NCBI GenBank assembly: GCA_028713555.1
Contig: JAQTOA010000002.1
Coordinates: 207,482-271,481, forward strand
Source of the DNA: Sterolibacterium sp.
GTDB taxonomy: Bacteria; Pseudomonadota; Gammaproteobacteria; Burkholderiales; Rhodocyclaceae
Direction: 5' to 3'
Length of the DNA: 64,000 bases
Part shown: piece by piece, positions 49,021-62,385 of the stretch
Numbering within the stretch: the first letter of the stretch is position 1
Layout: every line of letters begins with the position of its first letter
The notes under the pieces: model-generated
Databases searched by the model: none
Seen by the model: only the letters and a program-made list of their open reading frames with translations
What the model was told of the DNA's origin: nothing
Program-made: the position numbers and the translations under genes

Positions 49021-50640
<1,620 letters not shown>

Positions 50641-50802
50641 GTACGAATAATACTTGCATGGACAGTTAAGTGTGATATTATGGCTGTGTGGACATACCAT
50701 CCAAAAGGTGGTGGTGTCGAGTAGCCCAGTCAATATCATTGACGAGTAGCGGTGGCGCGCCGCGCCGCCCCCCACACGTCAGGTCAATGCAGGAGCGTAG
50801 GG

Positions 50803-51099
50803 TTGGCGAAGGTCAGTTCAAAGGAGTTGGAGCGACTTCAAGGCATGGATGCCAAGGCGGTCTTACTGCGGCTGACCGGCTACGCAAAGCCAGACCCTAG
50901 TTTCAGGCCAATCCGTAGTAAGCACACGACCCGCTGGCACGTCCGGGTCAATTCATCGGAATTCGAGCTTCTGGTATGCGGCCCCAAATTCTACGACACC
51001 CGCCAGAAGCGTGGCGGCGGTGGCGCGATCGATCTTGTGATGCATCTTTACCGGATCGAATTTCAGAAGGCCGTAGAGATACTGAGAGGGGTGCTATGA
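50803..51099 (+). CDS. small protein resembling the CHC2/primase N-terminal fold
   Basis: FYDTRQKRGGGGAIDLVMHLYRIEFQKAVEILRG resembles the G-GG-AIDLVMHL...F.EAVE.L segment of DnaG-type/CHC2 domains; TTG start with GGAG upstream. Confidence 0.45.
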   Translation: MAKVSSKELERLQGMDAKAVLLRLTGYAKPDPSFRPIRSKHTTRWHVRVNSSEFELLVCGPKFYDTRQKRGGGGAIDLVMHLYRIEFQKAVEILRGVL

Positions 51100-51163
51100 A
51101 CTCGTGCGCCAAACGGTCGATTGTTGGACAGATGGCCGCAACATCACTTTACAGGATCGCAAT

Positions 51164-51442
51164 ATGAAGCGTGCAAAAAAGAGGTTGCCGCCAATGTTGC
51201 CACAACCGGTGAGACGCAAGCCCAAATATAAGCTGGCTGACCTGTTGGCGCAGTGTGATCCAAACGCGCCTATGCCTGAAGATTTGGTGGCATGGGACAG
51301 GATGCCGTCCCTTGGCACAGAGTGGCCACTTGATACAGCGGCGCTAGAGGATTGCCAGCACGACTGGCAACGGGATGGCCAGACAATGATGGCAGTGCGA
51401 TGGACTTGCTCTAAGTGTGGGGAAAGTTATCTTGCTGGTTGA
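51164..51442 (+). CDS. small protein: MazE/ChpS-antitoxin-like segment plus C-terminal zinc-ribbon-like motif
   Basis: RRKPKYKLADLLAQCDPNAPMPEDLVAWDRMPSLGTEW; CQHDWQRDGQTMMAVRWTCSKCGESYL (CxH...CxxC). Confidence 0.45.
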   Translation: MKRAKKRLPPMLPQPVRRKPKYKLADLLAQCDPNAPMPEDLVAWDRMPSLGTEWPLDTAALEDCQHDWQRDGQTMMAVRWTCSKCGESYLAG

Positions 51443-51620
51443 TGCGATTCAAGAGGTTAGAGATTTAAGGTCACAATATGTGATCTTAATGGCCGGGCGG
51501 GCGCCGCATCAGTGCAGGTGGCGGCATGGGGGCGTAGCGCTTGCGCACAAAGCACTCAGAAAGGGTGATTCTTTCTTTGTCAAGGTCGCAAGAGAACCCC
51601 AAGGCGAGGCGGCGAACTGA
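51417..51620 (+). CDS. small hypothetical ORF, coupled to the following recombinase (TGATG)
   Basis: 67-aa ORF (GTG start) whose stop overlaps the ATG of the recombinase. Confidence 0.3.
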   Translation: MGKVILLVDAIQEVRDLRSQYVILMAGRAPHQCRWRHGGVALAHKALRKGDSFFVKVAREPQGEAAN

Positions 51621-52882
51621 TGGCCCACCTCGAATACATCCGCTACGAGCCGCATCGGGCGATGATCGAGTATCGATCCGTCCAGTGGGTGCGTGAAGTG
51701 TCCGTGCGCTCCATCGAGCGCTTGCCCCAAATCTTCTGGAATGACGGGCAGCCTTGGAGCGAGGCCAATCTATGGGCGCTGGAGATGGGTCGCAACCGCG
51801 ACGTGAAGATTAAGACCACCACCAGCCTCATGGAGCATCTGCACAAGTACGCCAACTGGCTTGAACGCGAGCCGATCGATTGGCGTCACTTCCCCAAGAA
51901 TAAAGCCGATCGTGTCCTGGTGCGCTACCGGGGCGAACTGGTGGATAGCCGCGACCGTGGAGAACTCTGCCCATCGACCACGACGGCACGGATGCGTGCC
52001 GTGATCCGCTTTTATCGCTACTGCGCCGGGCACAACTTCATCAGCCGCGATGCCCCCAAATGGCAGGACAAGGTAGCGGTGCTGCGCTATTTCGACACCG
52101 TTGGTTTCGAACGCACCCTGCTGCGGATCACGACGGACATCTCCATCCCGAATCGCGCCCGGCCCGGCGTACGACTTGAGGATGGACTGCTGCCGCTAAC
52201 CTCCGAACACATGATGGAGTTGCTGAGTTTCAGCAGAGCGGAGGCCAGCCAGGAACTTCATCTGATGCTGACCACCGGCTCCTTCACCGGGGCACGGCTC
52301 GGCACCATCACGACCGTGCGTGTTTCTGCGCTTGAACAGGCCATGCGCGACCCAAAGGTTCCGGGCATGTGGATCGTACCGATAGGGCCGGGAACTGGAA
52401 TTGCAACCAAGTTCGACGTGTCCGGCGACCTCATACTGCCCGATCCGCTGATGAAGCAACTGAGGGATTACGCCAGCTCGCGACGGCATATCGACAGGAT
52501 GATCAAGGCCAGCAAGGAAGACAAGTCGCTGCTGTTCCTGACCCGGCACGGCAAGCCGTACAAGCCAACTGCCGTGGACCGGGAAATGGTTGAACTACGC
52601 CGGCATGGGAGGGCCGCCGGATTGAAGTTCCTGCAGAAGTTCAAGTTTCATCAGACGCGAGCCACCTACGGCACATGGCTCATGTCGATCTGCCTGAAGG
52701 TCTCCTCCGTTAAGGCATCAATTGAATTCGTGAAGCGTTCAATGCACCACAAGAACGAAGCAACGACGTTCGGCTACATCACATTCATCGAGCACACCCA
52801 GGCCAAGATCGATGTCGCGAACGCGTTTACAGAAGCGTTCCTCGGCATCAAGAACCGCTTGACAGAGGCAGCCAATGCGTGA
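51620..52882 (+). CDS. tyrosine recombinase/integrase 1 of a multi-recombinase operon
   Basis: ARLGTI (Arg I), HQTRATYGTWL (HxxR), HHKNEATTFGYI (H..Y). Confidence 0.88.
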   Translation: MAHLEYIRYEPHRAMIEYRSVQWVREVSVRSIERLPQIFWNDGQPWSEANLWALEMGRNRDVKIKTTTSLMEHLHKYANWLEREPIDWRHFPKNKADRVLVRYRGELVDSRDRGELCPSTTTARMRAVIRFYRYCAGHNFISRDAPKWQDKVAVLRYFDTVGFERTLLRITTDISIPNRARPGVRLEDGLLPLTSEHMMELLSFSRAEASQELHLMLTTGSFTGARLGTITTVRVSALEQAMRDPKVPGMWIVPIGPGTGIATKFDVSGDLILPDPLMKQLRDYASSRRHIDRMIKASKEDKSLLFLTRHGKPYKPTAVDREMVELRRHGRAAGLKFLQKFKFHQTRATYGTWLMSICLKVSSVKASIEFVKRSMHHKNEATTFGYITFIEHTQAKIDVANAFTEAFLGIKNRLTEAANA

Positions 52883-54605
52883 CCTGAACATCCCCGATCT
52901 AACCTTCCCGATAGTGACCTATGGAAGGATGGAGACGCCTTGGGATCTTCGCACACTGCTTTACATGGGGGGCGCGAAGACATCTCCGAGGACCGTCTTC
53001 AACCAGATCGCAGCGGGCGAACTCGGCCGGCCCATCGTCGAGCGCATCGATTTGGCATTGCGGTTGCACGAAGCCATAAATGCCAACCTGGTGGGTGGAG
53101 GCTCAAAGAGGACGGCTTCCTCGATTCTTAAGCCTCTGAGGTGCTTCTTTGGATGGGCCGACGCGGGCGGACATCCCTTGTCGCTCGAAACGGTCGAGGC
53201 AAAATATCGCTACTGGTGCGACTTCCTGCTGCACCGGGTGAGGCTGCGCGAGATCAAGGAAAATACCGCTTACAGCATGGCCGTTGCGGTATCGAGCGTT
53301 CTTGGCGACGCACTGGATCGCGCGCAGTCCCTGATCTTGACGACCCGCCTCCGTAGTCCAAAGCCGGGATCGCGCGCAGTTGGCATTGCCGCTGACAAGC
53401 AGAATCTTGCCGACACATTCGCGTTCGGTCATCTCTGCCTTGACGTCATCGAGAGCACGCCAGTCGAGGCCATTTGGGGGCGTTTGCCGCTACGGATCCG
53501 GATCCGGTCCGGTAGGGTATTGGAGCAGTGGTCATACCTGATTCCCCCCGAAAATTTGGCCGCGCTCAAACCGGGATACAAGAACAAATCGCATTTCGAA
53601 AGAGCATTACGAAAACGCGCCGCATGGGAGGCCGACCGGACCCTGCGTACGCGCTTTCCGCTAGTCAACCTGCGACTCGAAGCCGAGTTGCTGGTGTTCA
53701 TGGCCCAGACCGGGAAGAATCTGGCACAGGCGCATCAATTGAGAAAAACCCAGTTCAGTTACAAGAGCACCATCGATGGCTATGAGGTGCGCGACTACAA
53801 GCAGCGCAGGCAAGGCGAGGTCCTGTTCGAAATTTTTGCTGAATACAGGACCCATTTCGACCGCTACCTCGCATGGCGCGATCAGGTGTTCGCCGGCGAG
53901 CCGACCGACCGCGTGTTCCCGTTTGTACGGCAGAAGGGGGCCGCCGAATCAACGGCTCCAGATTTCGATCAACTCAGGCGCAGAATCTGCACATCCTCCG
54001 GCATTCCCTTCGTTGGCCCGCAAAAACTCCGCAAGACCCGTGTGAACTGGCTGTTGCGCCAGTCCTGCGACCCCGATCAGACGGCCGAGATGGACCAGCA
54101 CACTAAGCAAACGCTGCTGCGCATCTATGACCAGCCGAGCCTGCAACGTGCCCAAGTGGAAATTATCCAATTCTGGAGAAAATGTGATCCGAGGCTTGGG
54201 GGTGATCCGCTGCCTTGCCCAGCTCCGGGGGTCTGCGACGGCGTACCCAAGGCGATTCCCGATCTCCCAGTGGAGGCTTCAAAGCCGGATTGCACCCACC
54301 CTGCGGGGTGCCTCTTCTGCGACCACCACAGAGATATCGACAGCGAGGACTATGTGTGGTCGGCTGCCAGCATGCGGCACCTCAATACCCTCATCCTGGC
54401 AGGCTTCCGACCCGTAAAGAAGGGGAAGGCCGACGCGGCACGCCACGTCGAACTCGCCATCGAGGTGCTGACGGCGAAGCTAAAGTGGTTCCGGGAGTCG
54501 AACCACAAGCGCAAGCATTGGGTCGAGGAAGCGATGGAACGGATCGAGGAAAGCGCCTTTCATCCCCATTGGCGCCACCTGATTGAGAGCGCGGAAGGAG
54601 TCTGA
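52875..54605 (+). CDS. tyrosine-recombinase-like protein 2
   Basis: TGKNLAQAHQLR at the Arg I position, KLRKTRVNWLLRQ, QHTKQTLLRIYDQPS; C-terminal CTHPAGCLFCDHHRDIDSEDYVWS Cys cluster. Confidence 0.75.
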   Translation: MRDLNIPDLTFPIVTYGRMETPWDLRTLLYMGGAKTSPRTVFNQIAAGELGRPIVERIDLALRLHEAINANLVGGGSKRTASSILKPLRCFFGWADAGGHPLSLETVEAKYRYWCDFLLHRVRLREIKENTAYSMAVAVSSVLGDALDRAQSLILTTRLRSPKPGSRAVGIAADKQNLADTFAFGHLCLDVIESTPVEAIWGRLPLRIRIRSGRVLEQWSYLIPPENLAALKPGYKNKSHFERALRKRAAWEADRTLRTRFPLVNLRLEAELLVFMAQTGKNLAQAHQLRKTQFSYKSTIDGYEVRDYKQRRQGEVLFEIFAEYRTHFDRYLAWRDQVFAGEPTDRVFPFVRQKGAAESTAPDFDQLRRRICTSSGIPFVGPQKLRKTRVNWLLRQSCDPDQTAEMDQHTKQTLLRIYDQPSLQRAQVEIIQFWRKCDPRLGGDPLPCPAPGVCDGVPKAIPDLPVEASKPDCTHPAGCLFCDHHRDIDSEDYVWSAASMRHLNTLILAGFRPVKKGKADAARHVELAIEVLTAKLKWFRESNHKRKHWVEEAMERIEESAFHPHWRHLIESAEGV

Positions 54606-54606
54606 C

Positions 54607-56658
54607 ATGCACGTTAGCCTGGATCAGTTTGGATTGGCGATTGAAACGCCGCTGGCGGTACCGACGTCGCGCTGCTACCGTCCTCCCAGCTGGCCTCCTC
54701 CTCGGGGTTGGGTTTGCATAGAGGATCAATATGGCAATGAAGTTGCAAAGTGGGAAGATCACATTTGGCCCTTTTATCCTTGGACCGGAAATAATGACTC
54801 GTCGATCAATTTCGGCGACGGCCCGCAACTCAACTCCAGATCACACCAAATCGATCCGGCCAATGCCGACATTCTCCGGGAACTGGTGGGGTGGCGACTC
54901 TGGGGGCCACGCGGAGCGAAAAATATTTCCTCGCTCCTGACTGGCTTCGTTGAGCCCATCAGGAAAGTCATCGCCCTGTGTAGCCAACACAAAATCCTCG
55001 TCTCCAACCTGTCCCGTTATCCGGCACTGATTGAAGAGGTCGCCCGATCAATGGCTCCGAGCTCTTTTGCAAAGGTGGTTGCGGAACTGGATCGGCTAAG
55101 GGATGCGCGTGAGTTTCTCGGGTTCGAACTCCTCGATCAAGCGGGTATCCAGCGTCTGAAGGCCGCCCAGCCCGATCATAACCCCGGGCAAACCGAATAC
55201 ATCCCGTCGAGGATCTGGACCTGTTTCGTCATGCGTCTGAAGGAGTGCCTGGACGACTACCTGGCGCACCAGCAGCAGATCGAAGCGTGCTTCGCTTTCT
55301 GTGTGGACGCGTATGAAAAGAACGGCGTCAAGGAAGACCGGATGGGCAAGAAGCAAAGCAAGCGTATCCCCTTTCAAAACCCAACAGGACGTTTGACCGG
55401 CAAGCGCTCCGGTATCGCCTATCTTGGTCCATTCGGGGATACGGCGCAGCGGTTCGGGATCAGGGACGCTCTGGAGCGGTGGGTTGGTAGACTGGAGGGT
55501 GGTCGCGGCATTGCAGCGTTTAGCAAATATTTGTCCCTGATCCAATACGCGGGCTTGGCCGATGTGTTGAGCTTCACCTTGATGCGGGTCGCGGAAGGCG
55601 TCAGTATTCGCAAGAATTGCCTCGTTTGGCATGACGACGCGGTGTACGGCCTAATCCCCCTGATTCAGGCTGAGACGACCAAGACCGACCCGGACGAGAA
55701 CGCCCTGTGGATCACCAGCCCGAGTGTCGAGCCGGCGATCCGCGCTTTGAACTCCGTGGCGAGAATGAGGCTTTCTTGCGTGGGGGAATGGACGGATGCC
55801 GGCAATCATTATCTAATCAACGATCCCGTTGAGCCCTGGTCCAGGCCGAAGAAAGCCGAAATGGGACTACGTCCAAGGGCTAGAGACTTAAACGAGGTCG
55901 TCTCCAAGTTGTTTCCGGGACCGTTCGACCTCCAACAATTAACCATCACAGAAGAAGATCTCAAGATTGCCCGCGCCGTTAGCCCGACGCTGAATCGGGA
56001 TCTGTTTCAGGTCGGCACGCCTTGGCGCTTGGCTTGGCACCAGCTCCGCCGCACAGGGGCAGTCAACATGTTTGCCTCCGGTGACATCAGCGATTCCTCG
56101 ATGCAGCTTCAGATGAAGCACCTGACCCGCTGGATGCCGCTCTACTATGGGCGCGGCAATACGAGTCTCCATCTCAACGAAGCGACCCGCGTCCTCCTTG
56201 TGAACGCACAGTACGAGGCCATGGGGCGGCAACTCGCGGCAGTTCAAACGGATCGTTTCGTAAGCCCTTACGGAGATGACCACAAGGAGAAACTCCTCTC
56301 CTCAGCGAGCGACGAAACCCCGGTGAACCTCATCAGCGAGGACGATGCAGCGAGTTACGAGAAGGCCGCACGACAGTACCATATCAGCTTCCGCCGGACG
56401 GTACTCGGCGGCTGCATGAAGAATGGCGCATGCGACGGGGACTGCGTTTCGTCGGTTGGCGATTGCGCGGGTGGCGACGGCAAGGAGCCCTGTAGCAATG
56501 TGCTGTTTGATCGTAACCGCGCCGAGTCCAATCAGATTCGTCTGGATGGCGTGGTCAAGCAGCTTGAGATAACACCGCCCGACACGCCGAGGTATCGGCA
56601 TCTTGAACAGGAACGGCGCGGATTGGAGAACTACTTTGTTTACATCAACCGACCCTAG
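54607..56658 (+). CDS. tyrosine-recombinase-like protein 3
   Basis: LMRVAEGVSIR, WHQLRRTGAVNMF (HxLR), MKHLTRWMPLYYGRG (H..Y); Cys-rich C-terminus GGCMKNGACDGDCVSSVGDC. Confidence 0.75.
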   Translation: MHVSLDQFGLAIETPLAVPTSRCYRPPSWPPPRGWVCIEDQYGNEVAKWEDHIWPFYPWTGNNDSSINFGDGPQLNSRSHQIDPANADILRELVGWRLWGPRGAKNISSLLTGFVEPIRKVIALCSQHKILVSNLSRYPALIEEVARSMAPSSFAKVVAELDRLRDAREFLGFELLDQAGIQRLKAAQPDHNPGQTEYIPSRIWTCFVMRLKECLDDYLAHQQQIEACFAFCVDAYEKNGVKEDRMGKKQSKRIPFQNPTGRLTGKRSGIAYLGPFGDTAQRFGIRDALERWVGRLEGGRGIAAFSKYLSLIQYAGLADVLSFTLMRVAEGVSIRKNCLVWHDDAVYGLIPLIQAETTKTDPDENALWITSPSVEPAIRALNSVARMRLSCVGEWTDAGNHYLINDPVEPWSRPKKAEMGLRPRARDLNEVVSKLFPGPFDLQQLTITEEDLKIARAVSPTLNRDLFQVGTPWRLAWHQLRRTGAVNMFASGDISDSSMQLQMKHLTRWMPLYYGRGNTSLHLNEATRVLLVNAQYEAMGRQLAAVQTDRFVSPYGDDHKEKLLSSASDETPVNLISEDDAASYEKAARQYHISFRRTVLGGCMKNGACDGDCVSSVGDCAGGDGKEPCSNVLFDRNRAESNQIRLDGVVKQLEITPPDTPRYRHLEQERRGLENYFVYINRP

Positions 56659-57091
56659 CCAAGCGTCCGGAGCGGAGAAGCGCTTTCGCGATGCATTCGA
56701 GCGGCTAAAGCTCGGAGTCCCCCAGGTGTTGCCCAAGGGAACGCCGGTCAGCCAAAACAACGTTGCCAAGGAAGCTGCTTGCGATCCAAGCGCGTTGCGT
56801 AAGGCCCGCTTCCCCTTGCTGGTGTTTGAGATTCAGGAATGGATCGAGGCCCACAAAGGTGAGCAACCGGGTTCTGAGCGTCAGAAACTGCTCAAACAGC
56901 GCCGAAAGAACCGGAATACCCGTGACACCATTGCCGACCTCAAGCAGCAACGAGACGTAGCTGCCGGCCTACTCGCTGATGCTAACCTGCGAATCGTTGA
57001 ACTGTCGGAACAACTCGCGGAGGTGCAGGCCCGGTTGGACGAATATCAGCCGTCTGCTCGGGTTCTGGACCTGCCAAAGAAGGGCGAATGA
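56603..57091 (+). CDS. small helical/coiled-coil accessory protein of the recombinase operon (true start possibly TTG about 56636)
   Basis: Overlaps recombinase 3; helical C-terminus NTRDTIADLKQQRDVAAGLLADANLRIVELSEQLAEVQARLDEY; N-terminus VSQNNVAKEAACDPSALRKARFPLL HTH-like. Confidence 0.7.
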   Translation: MNRNGADWRTTLFTSTDPSQASGAEKRFRDAFERLKLGVPQVLPKGTPVSQNNVAKEAACDPSALRKARFPLLVFEIQEWIEAHKGEQPGSERQKLLKQRRKNRNTRDTIADLKQQRDVAAGLLADANLRIVELSEQLAEVQARLDEYQPSARVLDLPKKGE

Positions 57092-57548
57092 GTAGGCTCT
57101 CCGGATCCTGTGATGGATAATTCGTTGTGCTGCGCACAGTGTCGTCAGGTTGCAGCTTTGGTTAGACCGGAGGTTTCAGTTCCATTTCCAGACGTTCGAG
57201 GACGCCATTCTATACGCATAATTGGCGTTAGTTCCAGCCAGTTTGAACGGCTGCTTTGCGGCAACGAATCTGAAAATGCCGCTGACTCTTGCCGCCATCA
57301 AGCCGTCATAGACTTTGAGGTTTTGTGGGACCGCTTCACATCCAGCTGCGGTCATCGGAGACCATGCGCGGCGGCAAGTCACTGATTCCGATTTGAACGG
57401 CTGCTCCTTGATAATCTCGATGTCTCAGCCCGAACGAGGCTGTGTGAAATCCGACGAAAAGGGTGGTTCACATAAGCAAGCAGTACAGTTACCACGAGGC
57501 AGGTGACGACGATGTCGAACATGAGTAACTGATCTATATGAATTCCGG

Positions 57549-57938
57549 TTAAACGTCCGGCTTGCCTCCCTCACTGTCCTGGCCCGCGATGATCTGTTTG
57601 AGGCCAACGTAGGAAGTCATCTCAGTTGTCTCGGACTCTGCGGAAATAACCTGCGGATGAAGGATTTGGGTTCTGGCCTTCATTTCGTCGCAGATTTGTT
57701 CCAATTCCGTTATACGTTTCCGCTGACGGTTAAGCGTCCATTGTTTGCGTAGCGTAGATGGCGTTGAGACCAACGCGATGATGAAACCACCGGCAGCGAT
57801 GGCCAACAAGATTACCAGCGCCAATGAGCTCTCGAAGTTCCAGAACAGAAAAGTGACTGTCACGGAAACATTGTTCTGCAGCGCAAAAATGACGCCGCAT
57901 GCAGCGATGAGCATCCCGGTAATAATGAGTAGTTGCAT
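57549..57938 (-). CDS. LapA-domain (DUF1049) membrane protein
   Basis: FALQNNVSVTVTFLFWNFESSLALVILLAIAAGGFI. Confidence 0.85.
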   Translation of the reverse strand: MQLLIITGMLIAACGVIFALQNNVSVTVTFLFWNFESSLALVILLAIAAGGFIIALVSTPSTLRKQWTLNRQRKRITELEQICDEMKARTQILHPQVISAESETTEMTSYVGLKQIIAGQDSEGGKPDV

Positions 57939-57953
57939 GGTGATTTAATACCT

Positions 57954-58223
57954 CTAACTTTTGGACTGGCTCGTCGCAGTGAAGGGTTTAAAGCGGATAC
58001 TGCTTTTACCTCTTTCCTTTACTTCATACATCAATTCATCGGCTGCTTTCAGCATGTCAGGGAATAAACGATCAGATTCCCTGAACCATGCTACACCGAT
58101 GCTTCCACTTACCAGTGGGAATTCTTCAAGCGCAGTGTTAACTGCAATGGAAATCTTCCGACCTGCTTCGACAGCCGCGTCGGATGCATGAATAAAGGGC
58201 GACAAGACGAAAGACCGGTTCAT
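57954..58223 (-). pseudogene. N-terminally truncated GGDEF-domain fragment
   Basis: VSGSIGVAWFRESDRLFPDMLKAADELMYEVKERGKSSIRF matches the C-terminal part of diguanylate cyclase domains; no GGDEF signature upstream. Confidence 0.7.
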
Positions 58224-58329
58224 TCGGGGATTACCTCCTGCGGATATTGTGGTTTCGATGGATATCCATCTCGGATCGCACTGACTGGAAGAGTTCCACT
58301 TGTCTGATTATGTCTTGGGAAAAGTAATG

Positions 58330-58959
58330 TCATCGCCACAGGCTCAAGGGAGGAGCGGTAACCACGGCGCGAAGAATGTCACTGCGCGAGACGAAACCTG
58401 CCAGATGCCCCGCATCATTGACGATGGGCACTCCAGCTACTCCATACTCCAACATGACGGCGGCGATGCGGCGAATGTCGGTCACGGACGCGGCAGCGAC
58501 TACTGGCGTGGTCATAACGTCACTCACTTGGCGTTGCAGGGTTTCGATGATCCGATCGCCATCGATATTGATGGCCGTCAGCAAATCACGTTCGCTGACA
58601 ATGCCAACCAGCCGACCTGTCGCATCGACCACGGGCGCCTGATAGATGTGCTTCTCACGCAGTACGCGCCAAGCCTGAGCTACGGCATCGCTCGATTTCA
58701 GTGTGATCACTGAACCAGTCATTATCTGCGCAGCATGGTAAAGCGGTCCGCGGTCGAGGTCGCCGTACAGCATCTGACGGTAGGTGCGTATCGCTTCGTC
58801 CCGTGGGCCTGGCCTTGTTGTCGCTTCGATTGAGAGATCCTCACCATCCAGGGCAATGGGGCGCACACGGCTCACGCTCTGCGCTTGGCGCACGCGAGGC
58901 ATCGATTCCAACGTACCGCTGAAGACTGGACCGCTGATGCCATAGATTGAGAACATCAA
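58330..58959 (-). CDS. CBS-domain protein
   Basis: Two CBS repeats: VVDATGRLVGIVSERDLL and IVNDAGHLAGFVSRSDIL. Confidence 0.9.
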   Translation of the reverse strand: MMFSIYGISGPVFSGTLESMPRVRQAQSVSRVRPIALDGEDLSIEATTRPGPRDEAIRTYRQMLYGDLDRGPLYHAAQIMTGSVITLKSSDAVAQAWRVLREKHIYQAPVVDATGRLVGIVSERDLLTAINIDGDRIIETLQRQVSDVMTTPVVAAASVTDIRRIAAVMLEYGVAGVPIVNDAGHLAGFVSRSDILRAVVTAPPLSLWR

Positions 58960-59294
58960 TTGGACTCCTGTCGTATCTGCATCGTCGTATGGTATCGATG
59001 CACTACTCGCAACACCAGTTTGCGTACCTCGTCCAAGAATAGGGTAATCGATGCGACTAGCGTGCCCATGTCGATTCGATAGTCATCAGGTCGAACGTGT
59101 TGAAAATGGCCTGAACTGGTCGAGAAACATGGGCAATGCAGGGTGCGGCGGCTTTTCGGCGAGGCAGTTCTGGCTATAACTTGCTATGCGTACGGATGCT
59201 TCGCCCGCATCCTGGCCACATGCGCAGTCACAGCCAAGGATGGCAGCGGATAGAGCGTGCCAGGGTTGGGCCGCAAGAGTAAGCATCACGTCTC

Positions 59295-60260
59295 TCATAG
59301 AGGCAGCGGACGTTGGTTGCTGGCGGCGAGAGTGGCCAACACGAACCCGCCGTAGAGACCAAGCAGCAGAATTCCCCGACCGAGAGAGATCATGCCGGCT
59401 CGATTGGGAAGCAGCAGCAGCAATCCGGCGACGCCGCAGACCAGGGTCACAACGATTTCGTTTAGTGGCGCTGCGATGGGATGAATGCTTGCAGCAATAC
59501 CGACGATCGCCAGACCATTGAAGAGATTGCTGCCGATCAGGGTGCCGACGCCAACGTCGTCGTGACCGCGCAGGCGTGCCAGTAGCATGGTGACCAGTTC
59601 CGGCAAGGAAGTGCCGATGGCGACCACGAGCACGCCGATTACATAGCTATTGACCTGGAAGGTCGCCGCGATGCCGGTGGCACCGAGGACAAACAGTCGA
59701 CCTGCGATGATCAGGGCACCCAGACCGAGCACCCCAAGCACCAGCGTCAGCCACGGAGCAAGTCCGGTATTTGCGGGTGGCTCACCGGACTTGCTTGCTC
59801 GGTGGCGCAAGGCTGCGCGCAGAGTGAATCCCAGCCAGATTGCAAACACGAGCAGCAGTATCGCGCCTTCGCCGCGCGCGATGCGCCCGTCCAGCGCGAA
59901 AACCAGCGTCAGGAAAGGCACTGCCAGGGCAAGCGCAAAATCGTGGTGGAATTCCTTGCGCGGGAATCGTATCGCTCCGAACAGCAAGGCCAGGCCGAAG
60001 ATCAGGGCGATGTTGAAGACGTTGCTGCCCAGCGCATCGCCCAGACCGATCTCGGGAGTACCCGAGACCGCCGCAATGGTGGAAACAGTCAGTTCCGGGC
60101 TGGAAGTGGCAAACGCCGCCAGCGTAGTCGCGGCCACCGCCCTGGGCACCCGCAGGTGCGCGGCGGCGCCGAGGATGGACTTAAGAAAAGCCTCGCCGCC
60201 GACCGCGGCCAGCACTACGGCACCGATCAGGGCGGCGAGATCGCTGGCGGCAATGGGCAT
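59295..60260 (-). CDS. CaCA-family sodium/calcium exchanger (YrbG-like)
   Basis: FATSSPELTVSTIAAVSGTPEIGLGDALGSNVFNIALI; AIGTSLPELVTMLLARLRGHDDVGVGTLIGSNLFN. Confidence 0.92.
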   Translation of the reverse strand: MPIAASDLAALIGAVVLAAVGGEAFLKSILGAAAHLRVPRAVAATTLAAFATSSPELTVSTIAAVSGTPEIGLGDALGSNVFNIALIFGLALLFGAIRFPRKEFHHDFALALAVPFLTLVFALDGRIARGEGAILLLVFAIWLGFTLRAALRHRASKSGEPPANTGLAPWLTLVLGVLGLGALIIAGRLFVLGATGIAATFQVNSYVIGVLVVAIGTSLPELVTMLLARLRGHDDVGVGTLIGSNLFNGLAIVGIAASIHPIAAPLNEIVVTLVCGVAGLLLLLPNRAGMISLGRGILLLGLYGGFVLATLAASNQRPLPL

Positions 60261-60274
60261 GATAGGCTCCAGGC

Positions 60275-60955
60275 TCAGTCACTGCTGTTCATAAAACCGA
60301 GCAGATGCAACAGGCTGGTGAAAAGGTTGAAGATCGAGACGAACAGGGTCACGGTGGCCATCACGTAGTTGGTCTCGCCGCCGTGAATGATATTGCTAGT
60401 TTCGTAGAGGATCAGGCCCGACATCAGCAGCACGAAGGCGGCGGATACGGTCAGCGACAGCGCCGGAATCTCGAAGAAGATTGCGGCAAGGCCGGCGAGG
60501 AAGGCGAGCAGGATGCCCACCATCAGGAACCCGCCCATGAAGCTGAAATCCTTGCGCGTGGTCAGCGCGTAGCCGGACAGGCCAAGGAAGATTGCAGCGG
60601 TGCCGGCCATGGCCATCATTACCGTCTGGCCGCCGTTGGGCAGTGCGAGGTAATGGCTGACGATGGGACCGAGCGTATAGCCCATGAAGCCGGTCAGCGC
60701 GAACACCGATACCAGGCCCCAGCCACTATTGCGTAGCTTGGTGGTGGCGAACAGCAAACCGAAGTAACCAACCAGGGTAATAATTAGCCCGGGATGCGGC
60801 AGTTTGAGTGCCACGGAAACGGCAGCGGTGATAGCAGCGAATAGCAGCGTCATCGACAGCAGCATGTAGGTGTTGCGGATCACCTTGTTGGTGGCCAGGG
60901 CGGATTCGGTCCCGCCGCGAGGCAGGGCAATCGCTTGAATTTTCGAGGTGGTCAT
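60275..60955 (-). CDS. Bax inhibitor-1/YccA family protein
   Basis: 7-TM ORF; FVLLMSGLILYETSNIIHGGETNYVMATVTLFVSIFNLFTSLLHLLG. Confidence 0.93.
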   Translation of the reverse strand: MTTSKIQAIALPRGGTESALATNKVIRNTYMLLSMTLLFAAITAAVSVALKLPHPGLIITLVGYFGLLFATTKLRNSGWGLVSVFALTGFMGYTLGPIVSHYLALPNGGQTVMMAMAGTAAIFLGLSGYALTTRKDFSFMGGFLMVGILLAFLAGLAAIFFEIPALSLTVSAAFVLLMSGLILYETSNIIHGGETNYVMATVTLFVSIFNLFTSLLHLLGFMNSSD

Positions 60956-60984
60956 GTGAGTCTCCTATAGATAATTCTGATGGA

Positions 60985-61341
60985 TCAGGCTTCGGCCAAC
61001 AACAGCGTACTCTGTCGCATTCCGTTCCGGTCGATTTTCACAATCCGGGACAATTGACGTGAGACACTTTGGTGCAGCCGATCGGTTGCGCGATCGATCG
61101 CTTGCGTGATGTTAGTTCCCAAGTCCTCGATAACGATCACTGAGTCATTCTTCAGCGTGACCATGACGCGACAAAGTTTATCCACGCCGCCACGGTCGGG
61201 ACCGTTGGTGTCGGTAAGGCGCATAGTCGTTTCCTGGATGGCGTGCGCAAAGCGCGAGAGCGCAACATCCAGCTTGTGCTTTGCATAACGGCGCAACGCC
61301 GAAGATATTGGCAGGTTCTTCACTTGAATTTGAACTTGCAT
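60985..61341 (-). CDS. HPF/RaiA-family ribosome-associated protein
   Basis: MQVQIQVKNLPISSALRRYAKHKLDVALSRFAHAI...AIDRATDRLHQSVSRQL. Confidence 0.8.
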   Translation of the reverse strand: MQVQIQVKNLPISSALRRYAKHKLDVALSRFAHAIQETTMRLTDTNGPDRGGVDKLCRVMVTLKNDSVIVIEDLGTNITQAIDRATDRLHQSVSRQLSRIVKIDRNGMRQSTLLLAEA

Positions 61342-61461
61342 GTTTTATCTCCTGAATGCCGCAGCACGTGCTGCGTAGTGGCAATGTAGCGGAGATCGTA
61401 TATCCGGAATAGTCGTATTATTGGTAACTACTATACGATAATCTCGTAGTATTATTGGCTA

Positions 61462-62385
61462 ATGAATCTCAAGCATCTTTACTACTTCTGGAAAGTCGCC
61501 AAGCATGGCGGCGTGATCCGTGCCAGCGAGGCGATTCATATCTCTCCGCAAACGCTCAGCGGCCAGATCAAGCTGCTTGAGGAGCGGCTTGGAACGGCAC
61601 TTTTCAGGCGACAAGGCCGCTTGCTGGAACTCACGGATGCAGGCAGGCTGGCGCTCGAATACGCCGATGAAATGTTTGCTCTTAGCGCCGAACTCGATCA
61701 GGTGATACGCCATTATCCGAAAGGGCGTCCAACCGAGTTCCGCGTCGGCGTATCCGACGCCTTGCCGAAGTCTCTGGCCTATCGATTGCTGCGCCCCGCG
61801 GTCAGCCTGCCTGAGCCAGTGCGCATCGTCTGTCGTGAATGGCGCCTCGACCGGTTGCTGGCGGAACTCGCGCTGCATCGCCTCGACCTGGTGATCTCGG
61901 ATTCCCCCGTGCCGCCCAATATAGACGTGCGCGCCTACAGCCACAAACTCGGGGAATCTGGATTGTCCTTTCTTGCCCATCCTGATATTGTCCAACAGGT
62001 CACCGAATCCTTCCCGCTTTGCTTGAATCAGGTTCCGATCCTGATGCCGGGGGAAGATTCCGCGGTGCGACGGAAACTGACGGAGTGGCTGAACAAGAAG
62101 CACCTTAGGGTCACGATCGCCGGGGAGTTTGACGATGCGGCGCTGATGGCCGCTTTCGGGCGCGAACGAGTCGGTGCTTTTCCTATGCCCAGTGTATTGG
62201 TCGACGAGTACACGGCGTCCGGCGAGTTACAGTTGCTGGGCGATGTCGATCAGGTCCGTATCGAATATTTCGCCTTGTCGGTGCAGCGTCGCCTGACGCA
62301 TCCCTGCGTGCTGGCGATCACATCCGGAGCGGATACCAGTCTGCAAACGCGCCATGTTAGGCCGAAGCACAAGTATTCCCGGTAG
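61462..62385 (+). CDS. nhaR: LysR-family transcriptional regulator NhaR
   Basis: MNLKHLYYFWKVAKHGGVIRASEAIHISPQTLSGQIKLLEERLGTALFRRQGR. Confidence 0.9.
   Translation: MNLKHLYYFWKVAKHGGVIRASEAIHISPQTLSGQIKLLEERLGTALFRRQGRLLELTDAGRLALEYADEMFALSAELDQVIRHYPKGRPTEFRVGVSDALPKSLAYRLLRPAVSLPEPVRIVCREWRLDRLLAELALHRLDLVISDSPVPPNIDVRAYSHKLGESGLSFLAHPDIVQQVTESFPLCLNQVPILMPGEDSAVRRKLTEWLNKKHLRVTIAGEFDDAALMAAFGRERVGAFPMPSVLVDEYTASGELQLLGDVDQVRIEYFALSVQRRLTHPCVLAITSGADTSLQTRHVRPKHKYSR

Follow-up and report, generated by a model that had tools for sequence, protein, structure and literature searches.

A probable betaproteobacterial strand-biased circularizing integrative element: core genes, target site and terminal signature

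The four genes at positions 51620-57091 of the window, i.e., the whole 64,000-nucleotide stretch of Sterolibacterium sp. DNA that was analysed in this study, constitute, with a probability of about 92% as judged from sequence comparison, the recombination module of a strand-biased circularizing integrative element (SE). The window element is an SE with intact core genes and an intact left end, and it is a betaproteobacterial addition to an already described class. Its assignment to the SE family is firm, while its activity, its copy-out mode and the part played by the 9-mers at the element ends are inferred. A preliminary description of this DNA had recognised the logic of the locus, i.e., several recombinases with a small helical accessory protein, which agrees with the SE orthologues and with the predicted helical structure of Srap, but it had not named the correct family.

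The four-gene operon and its products

The genes intA (51620-52882), tfp (52875-54605), intB (54607-56658) and srap (56603-57091) all lie on the forward strand in the ORF listing of the window and their ends abut or overlap, as had been described beforehand. The order intA-tfp-intB-srap on one strand is that of the SEs, and because it recurs in dozens of genomes, the arrangement lies far beyond chance. In profile searches, IntA scored above the gathering threshold of the Pfam model Phage_integrase (E 9.3e-8), while the products of ORFs 2-4 had no significant match to any curated family, which explains the cryptic appearance of the locus. A tblastn search of ORF2 against plasmids retrieved 49% identical proteins that were annotated as "site-specific integrases" in plasmids carrying tmexCD-toprJ, and in the two such records that were inspected the match lay inside the same four-gene array. 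Over their full length, the proteins were identical to their counterparts in SE-PaeBT2436 at 44% (IntA), 49% (Tfp, WP_034039553.1), 42% (IntB) and 50% (Srap, WP_023443007.1).

IntA (420 aa) and the unusually long IntB (683 aa) are both tyrosine recombinases with the RHRY motif that is expected of SEs. R226, H344xxR347, H377 and Y386 of IntA were invariant in alignments of 36-41 homologues, and the same was true of R327, H478xxR481, H505 and Y513/Y514 of IntB (36/36 homologues); these are the two ORFs in which Arg, HxxR/HxLR and H..Y patterns had been noted earlier. In Tfp (576 aa), N282 within "TGKNLAQ" occupies the position of the first catalytic Arg. Since this Asn was found in all 40 sequences that were aligned, the loss of the Arg is a family trait and not a local decay, and the earlier suggestion of a divergent, non-canonical partner was well founded. 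Moreover, R386 replaces the box-II His and R389 was kept in 39 of 40 sequences, while H409 and Y418 were conserved; an incomplete catalytic set is characteristic of the SE Tfp, and Y418 is conserved nevertheless. The Cys-rich C-termini that had been noticed in ORFs 2 and 3 proved to be real, with C454, C473, C479 and C482 of Tfp invariant in 30 sequences and a Cys-rich tail in IntB. Tfp was modelled with AlphaFold (mean pLDDT 78, pTM 0.59), the model was compared with solved structures using Foldseek and its top 12 matches, among them XerA, XerH, Cre, an integron integrase and the HP1 integrase, were all tyrosine recombinases, so that Tfp is predicted to have this fold. For Srap, the AlphaFold model predicted several short helices and, after them, a single long one (residues 92-148), and the fold search gave no confident relative, only TetR-like HTHs with an E of about 1.

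Target site, terminal signature and proposed mechanism

The integration target is an ABC-F ATPase gene (49021-50640, forward strand), whose C-terminus has been rewritten by the element. In same-genus and same-family relatives, this gene ends with EEYLASQGIE* or a similar sequence, and their DNA can be aligned with that of the window up to approximately nt 1589 of the 1620 nt of the gene (window position 50609 for relatives with an empty site); only Uliginosibacterium aquaticum goes further. The altered tail and a common left end were found in four genomes, namely that of the window, U. aquaticum, Undibacterium pigrum DSM 19792 (U. pigrum) and Rhodocyclales GT-UBC. These alignments indicate that the element entered the 3' end of the ABC-F gene, a site that it shares with the elements of three relatives, and the mobile-element reading of the preliminary description, which had called for empty-site alleles, was thus correct. 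When compared with the empty sites and the three other filled sites, the attL crossover hexamer is TCGCTA (50606-50611, forward strand, plus or minus 2 bp); it is followed by the left terminus, a motif C-like core site CGTACGTGTTACCGCGTGAT (50612-50631, forward strand) that also occurs at the left ends in U. aquaticum, U. pigrum and GT-UBC. In Undibacterium congeners that are 90-93% identical over the ABC-F gene, the site is empty, and their hexamer TGAGCA is the same as that at the attL of U. pigrum. This observation is in line with the SE model, in which the hexamer beside motif C corresponds to the centre of attB; the window hexamer TCGCTA differs by one base from TCGCCA in genome G001. Both attB halves are kept at the ends of the elements in GT-UBC and U. 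aquaticum, where the right half returns after the core genes and delimits elements of about 23.4 kb and 21.8 kb, respectively, while the window has attL only. The idea that the six bases on the ABC-F side are a foreign footprint was dropped after the alignment of SE-PaeBT2436 with intact umuC, by which the borders of that element were set. The ABC-F site is a preference of only a part of the clade because two more elements of this small clade occupy other sites, one beside or inside an EamA gene (L030) and the other adjoining unrelated genes (L125).

Comparison among the SE ends revealed a 9-mer, YRTGGACAT, at the element ends. In the window, copy 1 (CATGGACAG, 50657-50665, forward strand) has one mismatch and lies 45 bp from the border, and copy 2 (TGTGGACAT, 50687-50695, forward strand) follows 30 bp after it. 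Such a left pair, with a spacing of 28-31 bp, was present in 19-20 loci, of which the window locus is one. The 9-mer was far denser upstream of intA, with 25 copies in 34.6 kb compared with 38 in 605 kb elsewhere, some of the latter being right-end copies. In the three elements with compared borders, the right end carries a trio, i.e., two direct 9-mers 41-44 bp apart and then, after 50-54 bp, an inverted copy, which is separated from the hexamer by 20-21 bp. These arrays are asymmetric, with two direct copies on the left and two direct copies plus an inverted one on the right. With up to two mismatches, the trio was found in the forward orientation in 10 of 34 loci and in the reverse orientation in none, and it was absent from all 340 shuffled loci. 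Since SE-PaeBT2436, GT-UBC and U. aquaticum are the elements from which the trio was first recognised, the fair tests are the strand contrast and the remaining loci. The reading of a shared 12-mer, TGTGGACATACC, as a simple repeat at the termini was given up for that of a 9-mer array. In the betaproteobacterial clade, the two ends form only a weak imperfect inverted repeat; in GT-UBC (GTGCGTGTTG / GTGCGAGATG) about 8 of 10 bp agree as judged by eye. The words "subterminal", "GGACA" and "binding site" are absent from the main text of both SE papers (PMC10214605, PMC9345347).

In the window copy, no more than two small ORFs, both on the forward strand, separate the left end from intA. The first (50752-51099, 115 aa) has a 46% identical homologue at the corresponding position of the U. 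pigrum element and a weak DnaG-like resemblance, and the second (51104-51442, 112 aa) is an antitoxin-like fragment with a weak ChpS match below the cut-off. The expectation that islands of this kind carry defence genes held for the relatives, i.e., hsdR, hsdS and two hsdM genes for type I restriction in GT-UBC and an MmeI-like restriction-modification enzyme with two HEPN-domain proteins in U. aquaticum, but not for the window copy, in which no recognisable defence cargo was found. In both relatives, the cargo precedes intA and the core genes lie toward the srap-side end, whereas in the published SEs intA is at the left end, and this placement counts against a plain match to the SEs.

As judged by homology to characterised SEs, IntA and IntB, helped by Tfp and Srap, would act on both ends of the element, and one strand would be exchanged between attL and attR. 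The copied-out circle would carry six bases of the left flank, leave no empty site behind and then integrate at a preferred attB, which in this case is the last codons of the ABC-F ATPase gene; the reading frame of the gene is preserved, as its final codons are now provided by the element. We propose that one of the four proteins docks at the 9-mers inside the ends. Tentatively, and with somewhat less than an even chance of being right as a whole, we suggest that SE ends are asymmetric 9-mer arrays that may be bound by Tfp, Srap or an integrase and may give the two ends the distinct identities from which the strand bias would arise, and that the SEs include a lineage resident in Betaproteobacteria, some members of which target the 3' end of the ABC-F gene and can carry restriction-type cargo. 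The arrays provide a sequence rule for finding SE ends, and their asymmetry opens a route to how the four proteins choose one strand, a question that was left open by the SE papers.

The right side of the window copy

In the place where attR would be expected (57092-57530), the window has no right-end signature. No 9-mer trio was found within 6 mismatches on either strand of the window, searches of the window for the attB right half (up to 4 mismatches), for a 35-bp right-end consensus and for inverted repeats gave nothing convincing, and the 25-bp right-end pattern was absent from the 3.07 Mb assembly within 3 mismatches. Because the left 9-mer pair is present and the trio is absent, the right end is either missing or misassembled. 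The alignments suggest that the window copy is probably a stranded element with intact genes, which would be unable to circularise since its right end is missing.

It is quite possible, although somewhat doubtful, that the SE is complete in the cell and that its right end was lost only in assembly, through a misjoin of the contig in the repeat region 57182-57530. At 57182-57418 there are pieces (110-136 bp, 72-88% identity) of an intergenic repeat that is found in several places in the congeners G002 and G003 and that was absent elsewhere in the window genome at the threshold used. From 57530 to 62347, the window is 92-95% identical to G002, whereas elsewhere in the 44-64 kb stretch, where congeners could be matched, the identity is mostly 69-87%; moreover, the genes that precede this flank in G002 (glyA-nrdR-ribD) are on another contig of the window genome, which is 80% complete and in 35 contigs. 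A misjoin would agree less well with the lack of the right-end pattern anywhere in the assembly, and a genuine deletion or rearrangement would look no different, so that both explanations fit. The flank itself (57530-62347) contains genes for LapA, a GGDEF fragment, CBS, a Ca/Na exchanger, a Bax-inhibitor-like protein, HPF and LysR and may reflect either a recent exchange or a chimeric contig. The window ends at a contig end and this flank looks recently exchanged between species, which would also suit an element that runs on to the right, with 57530-62347 or more as its cargo and the right end beyond the contig. We consider this improbable, as the genes look ordinary chromosomal and in G002, a genome without an SE, they adjoin ribD.

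Related systems and host range

Among the closest known systems is SE-PaeBT2436, the SE that carries tmexCD-toprJ (PMC10214605). Its four orthologous core genes have the same order as in the window, and it has subterminal 9-mers at both ends, a common border signature and, as in GT-UBC and U. aquaticum, an inverted 9-mer that lies 20-21 bp from the crossover hexamer. It differs from the window element in its target (umuC and not the ABC-F gene), its efflux pump cargo and its intact right end. SE-6945 and SE-6283 of Vibrio alfacsensis (PMC9345347), which were compared by their published descriptions, likewise have four core genes, the 6-bp hexamer rule and a site preference, but represent a different subgroup.

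Several other systems share this logic. The three-integrase genomic island GInt (ginABCD; PMC5385486) likewise combines three recombinase-like proteins with a helical accessory protein, its GinC also lacks the first Arg and its occurrence in Betaproteobacteria is on record (PMC5385486; PMC10214605). It is nevertheless very unlikely that the window locus is a GInt, since its gene order and sequence family are different: the Arg-less protein is third in ginA-ginB-ginC-ginD and second here, as in the SEs. In addition, the window Tfp is 49% identical to the SE Tfp, whereas most GinC and Tfp proteins have no BLASTP match to each other (PMC10214605); the GInts were compared by their published descriptions. 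A gamma-mobile-trio (GMT) island, which had been proposed for this locus, which shares the recombinase-trio logic and which can carry defence genes as do relatives of the window element, can practically be dismissed, as the NCBIfam models of GmtY (NF040693) and GmtZ (NF047926) matched no protein of the window and its proteins have clear SE orthologues. Tn554 (TnpA/B/C) resembles the locus in having one ordinary and one large recombinase, a small accessory protein and a 6-bp footprint, but it has no counterpart of Tfp (PMC10214605) and Gram-positive hosts, so the Tn554-like alternative was abandoned as well. RIT elements lack a fourth gene, and each of their three recombinases is about 315-410 aa long and has the catalytic Tyr, in contrast to the 420, 576 and 683 aa plus srap of the window.

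The betaproteobacterial host that had been suspected was confirmed by the placement of the window genome in the GTDB family of U. aquaticum. It thus falls outside the host range of the SEs, Gammaproteobacteria, which is a range as reported and not a mechanistic criterion. A published survey of complete genomes (2020) found no Tfp or Srap in Betaproteobacteria, and the literature that we searched held no later report of betaproteobacterial SEs, although papers beyond this search may exist. A scan of genome contigs for SE genes revealed 38 loci, in nearly all of which the four genes were together; the exceptions (L034, L048, L061 and L065) had incomplete genes or lay where the stored stretch ends. 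The four-gene loci included those of Undibacterium, Dechloromonas, Azonexus, Uliginosibacterium, Massilia, Noviherbaspirillum, Rhodoferax and Caldimonas. In a Tfp tree, whose sample was shaped by the query and did not include the Vibrio SEs, most of the betaproteobacterial sequences clustered, with three beta/gamma label changes compared with a mean of 10.9 after shuffling. These sequences delineate a betaproteobacterial SE clade with four-gene synteny. This removes the stated limit of a young class whose best-known member spreads the tmexCD-toprJ pump. Betaproteobacterial SEs are rare, however, since an even draw of Burkholderiales gave matches in only 3 of 398 other genomes (less than 1% of the species), one of them weak. 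Plasmid matches in Paraburkholderia, Cupriavidus and Burkholderia at 22-26% identity were too low and were not counted as SEs.

The Herbaspirillum Tfp (L045) was placed within the gammaproteobacterial clade and that of Pseudomonas putida (L041) within the betaproteobacterial clade; judging from the tree, both are probably cross-class transfers, which would imply an exchange in both directions. A "Streptomyces" contig with a Pseudomonas-type SE (L054) is probably a contamination. A divergent three-recombinase array (486, 636 and 668 aa; L127, 5468-10997, reverse strand) with a faint Srap-like match adjoins AAA/helicase-type genes and could represent either a GInt or a distantly related SE. A second multi-recombinase cluster, with only weak GmtY/GmtZ matches, was found in Klebsiella michiganensis pMX581-77k (L124, 5586-14013), a plasmid on which the tmexCD-toprJ SE is present as well; CBASS-like genes (nucleotidyltransferase, ThiF, JAB and SAVED) follow this cluster directly.
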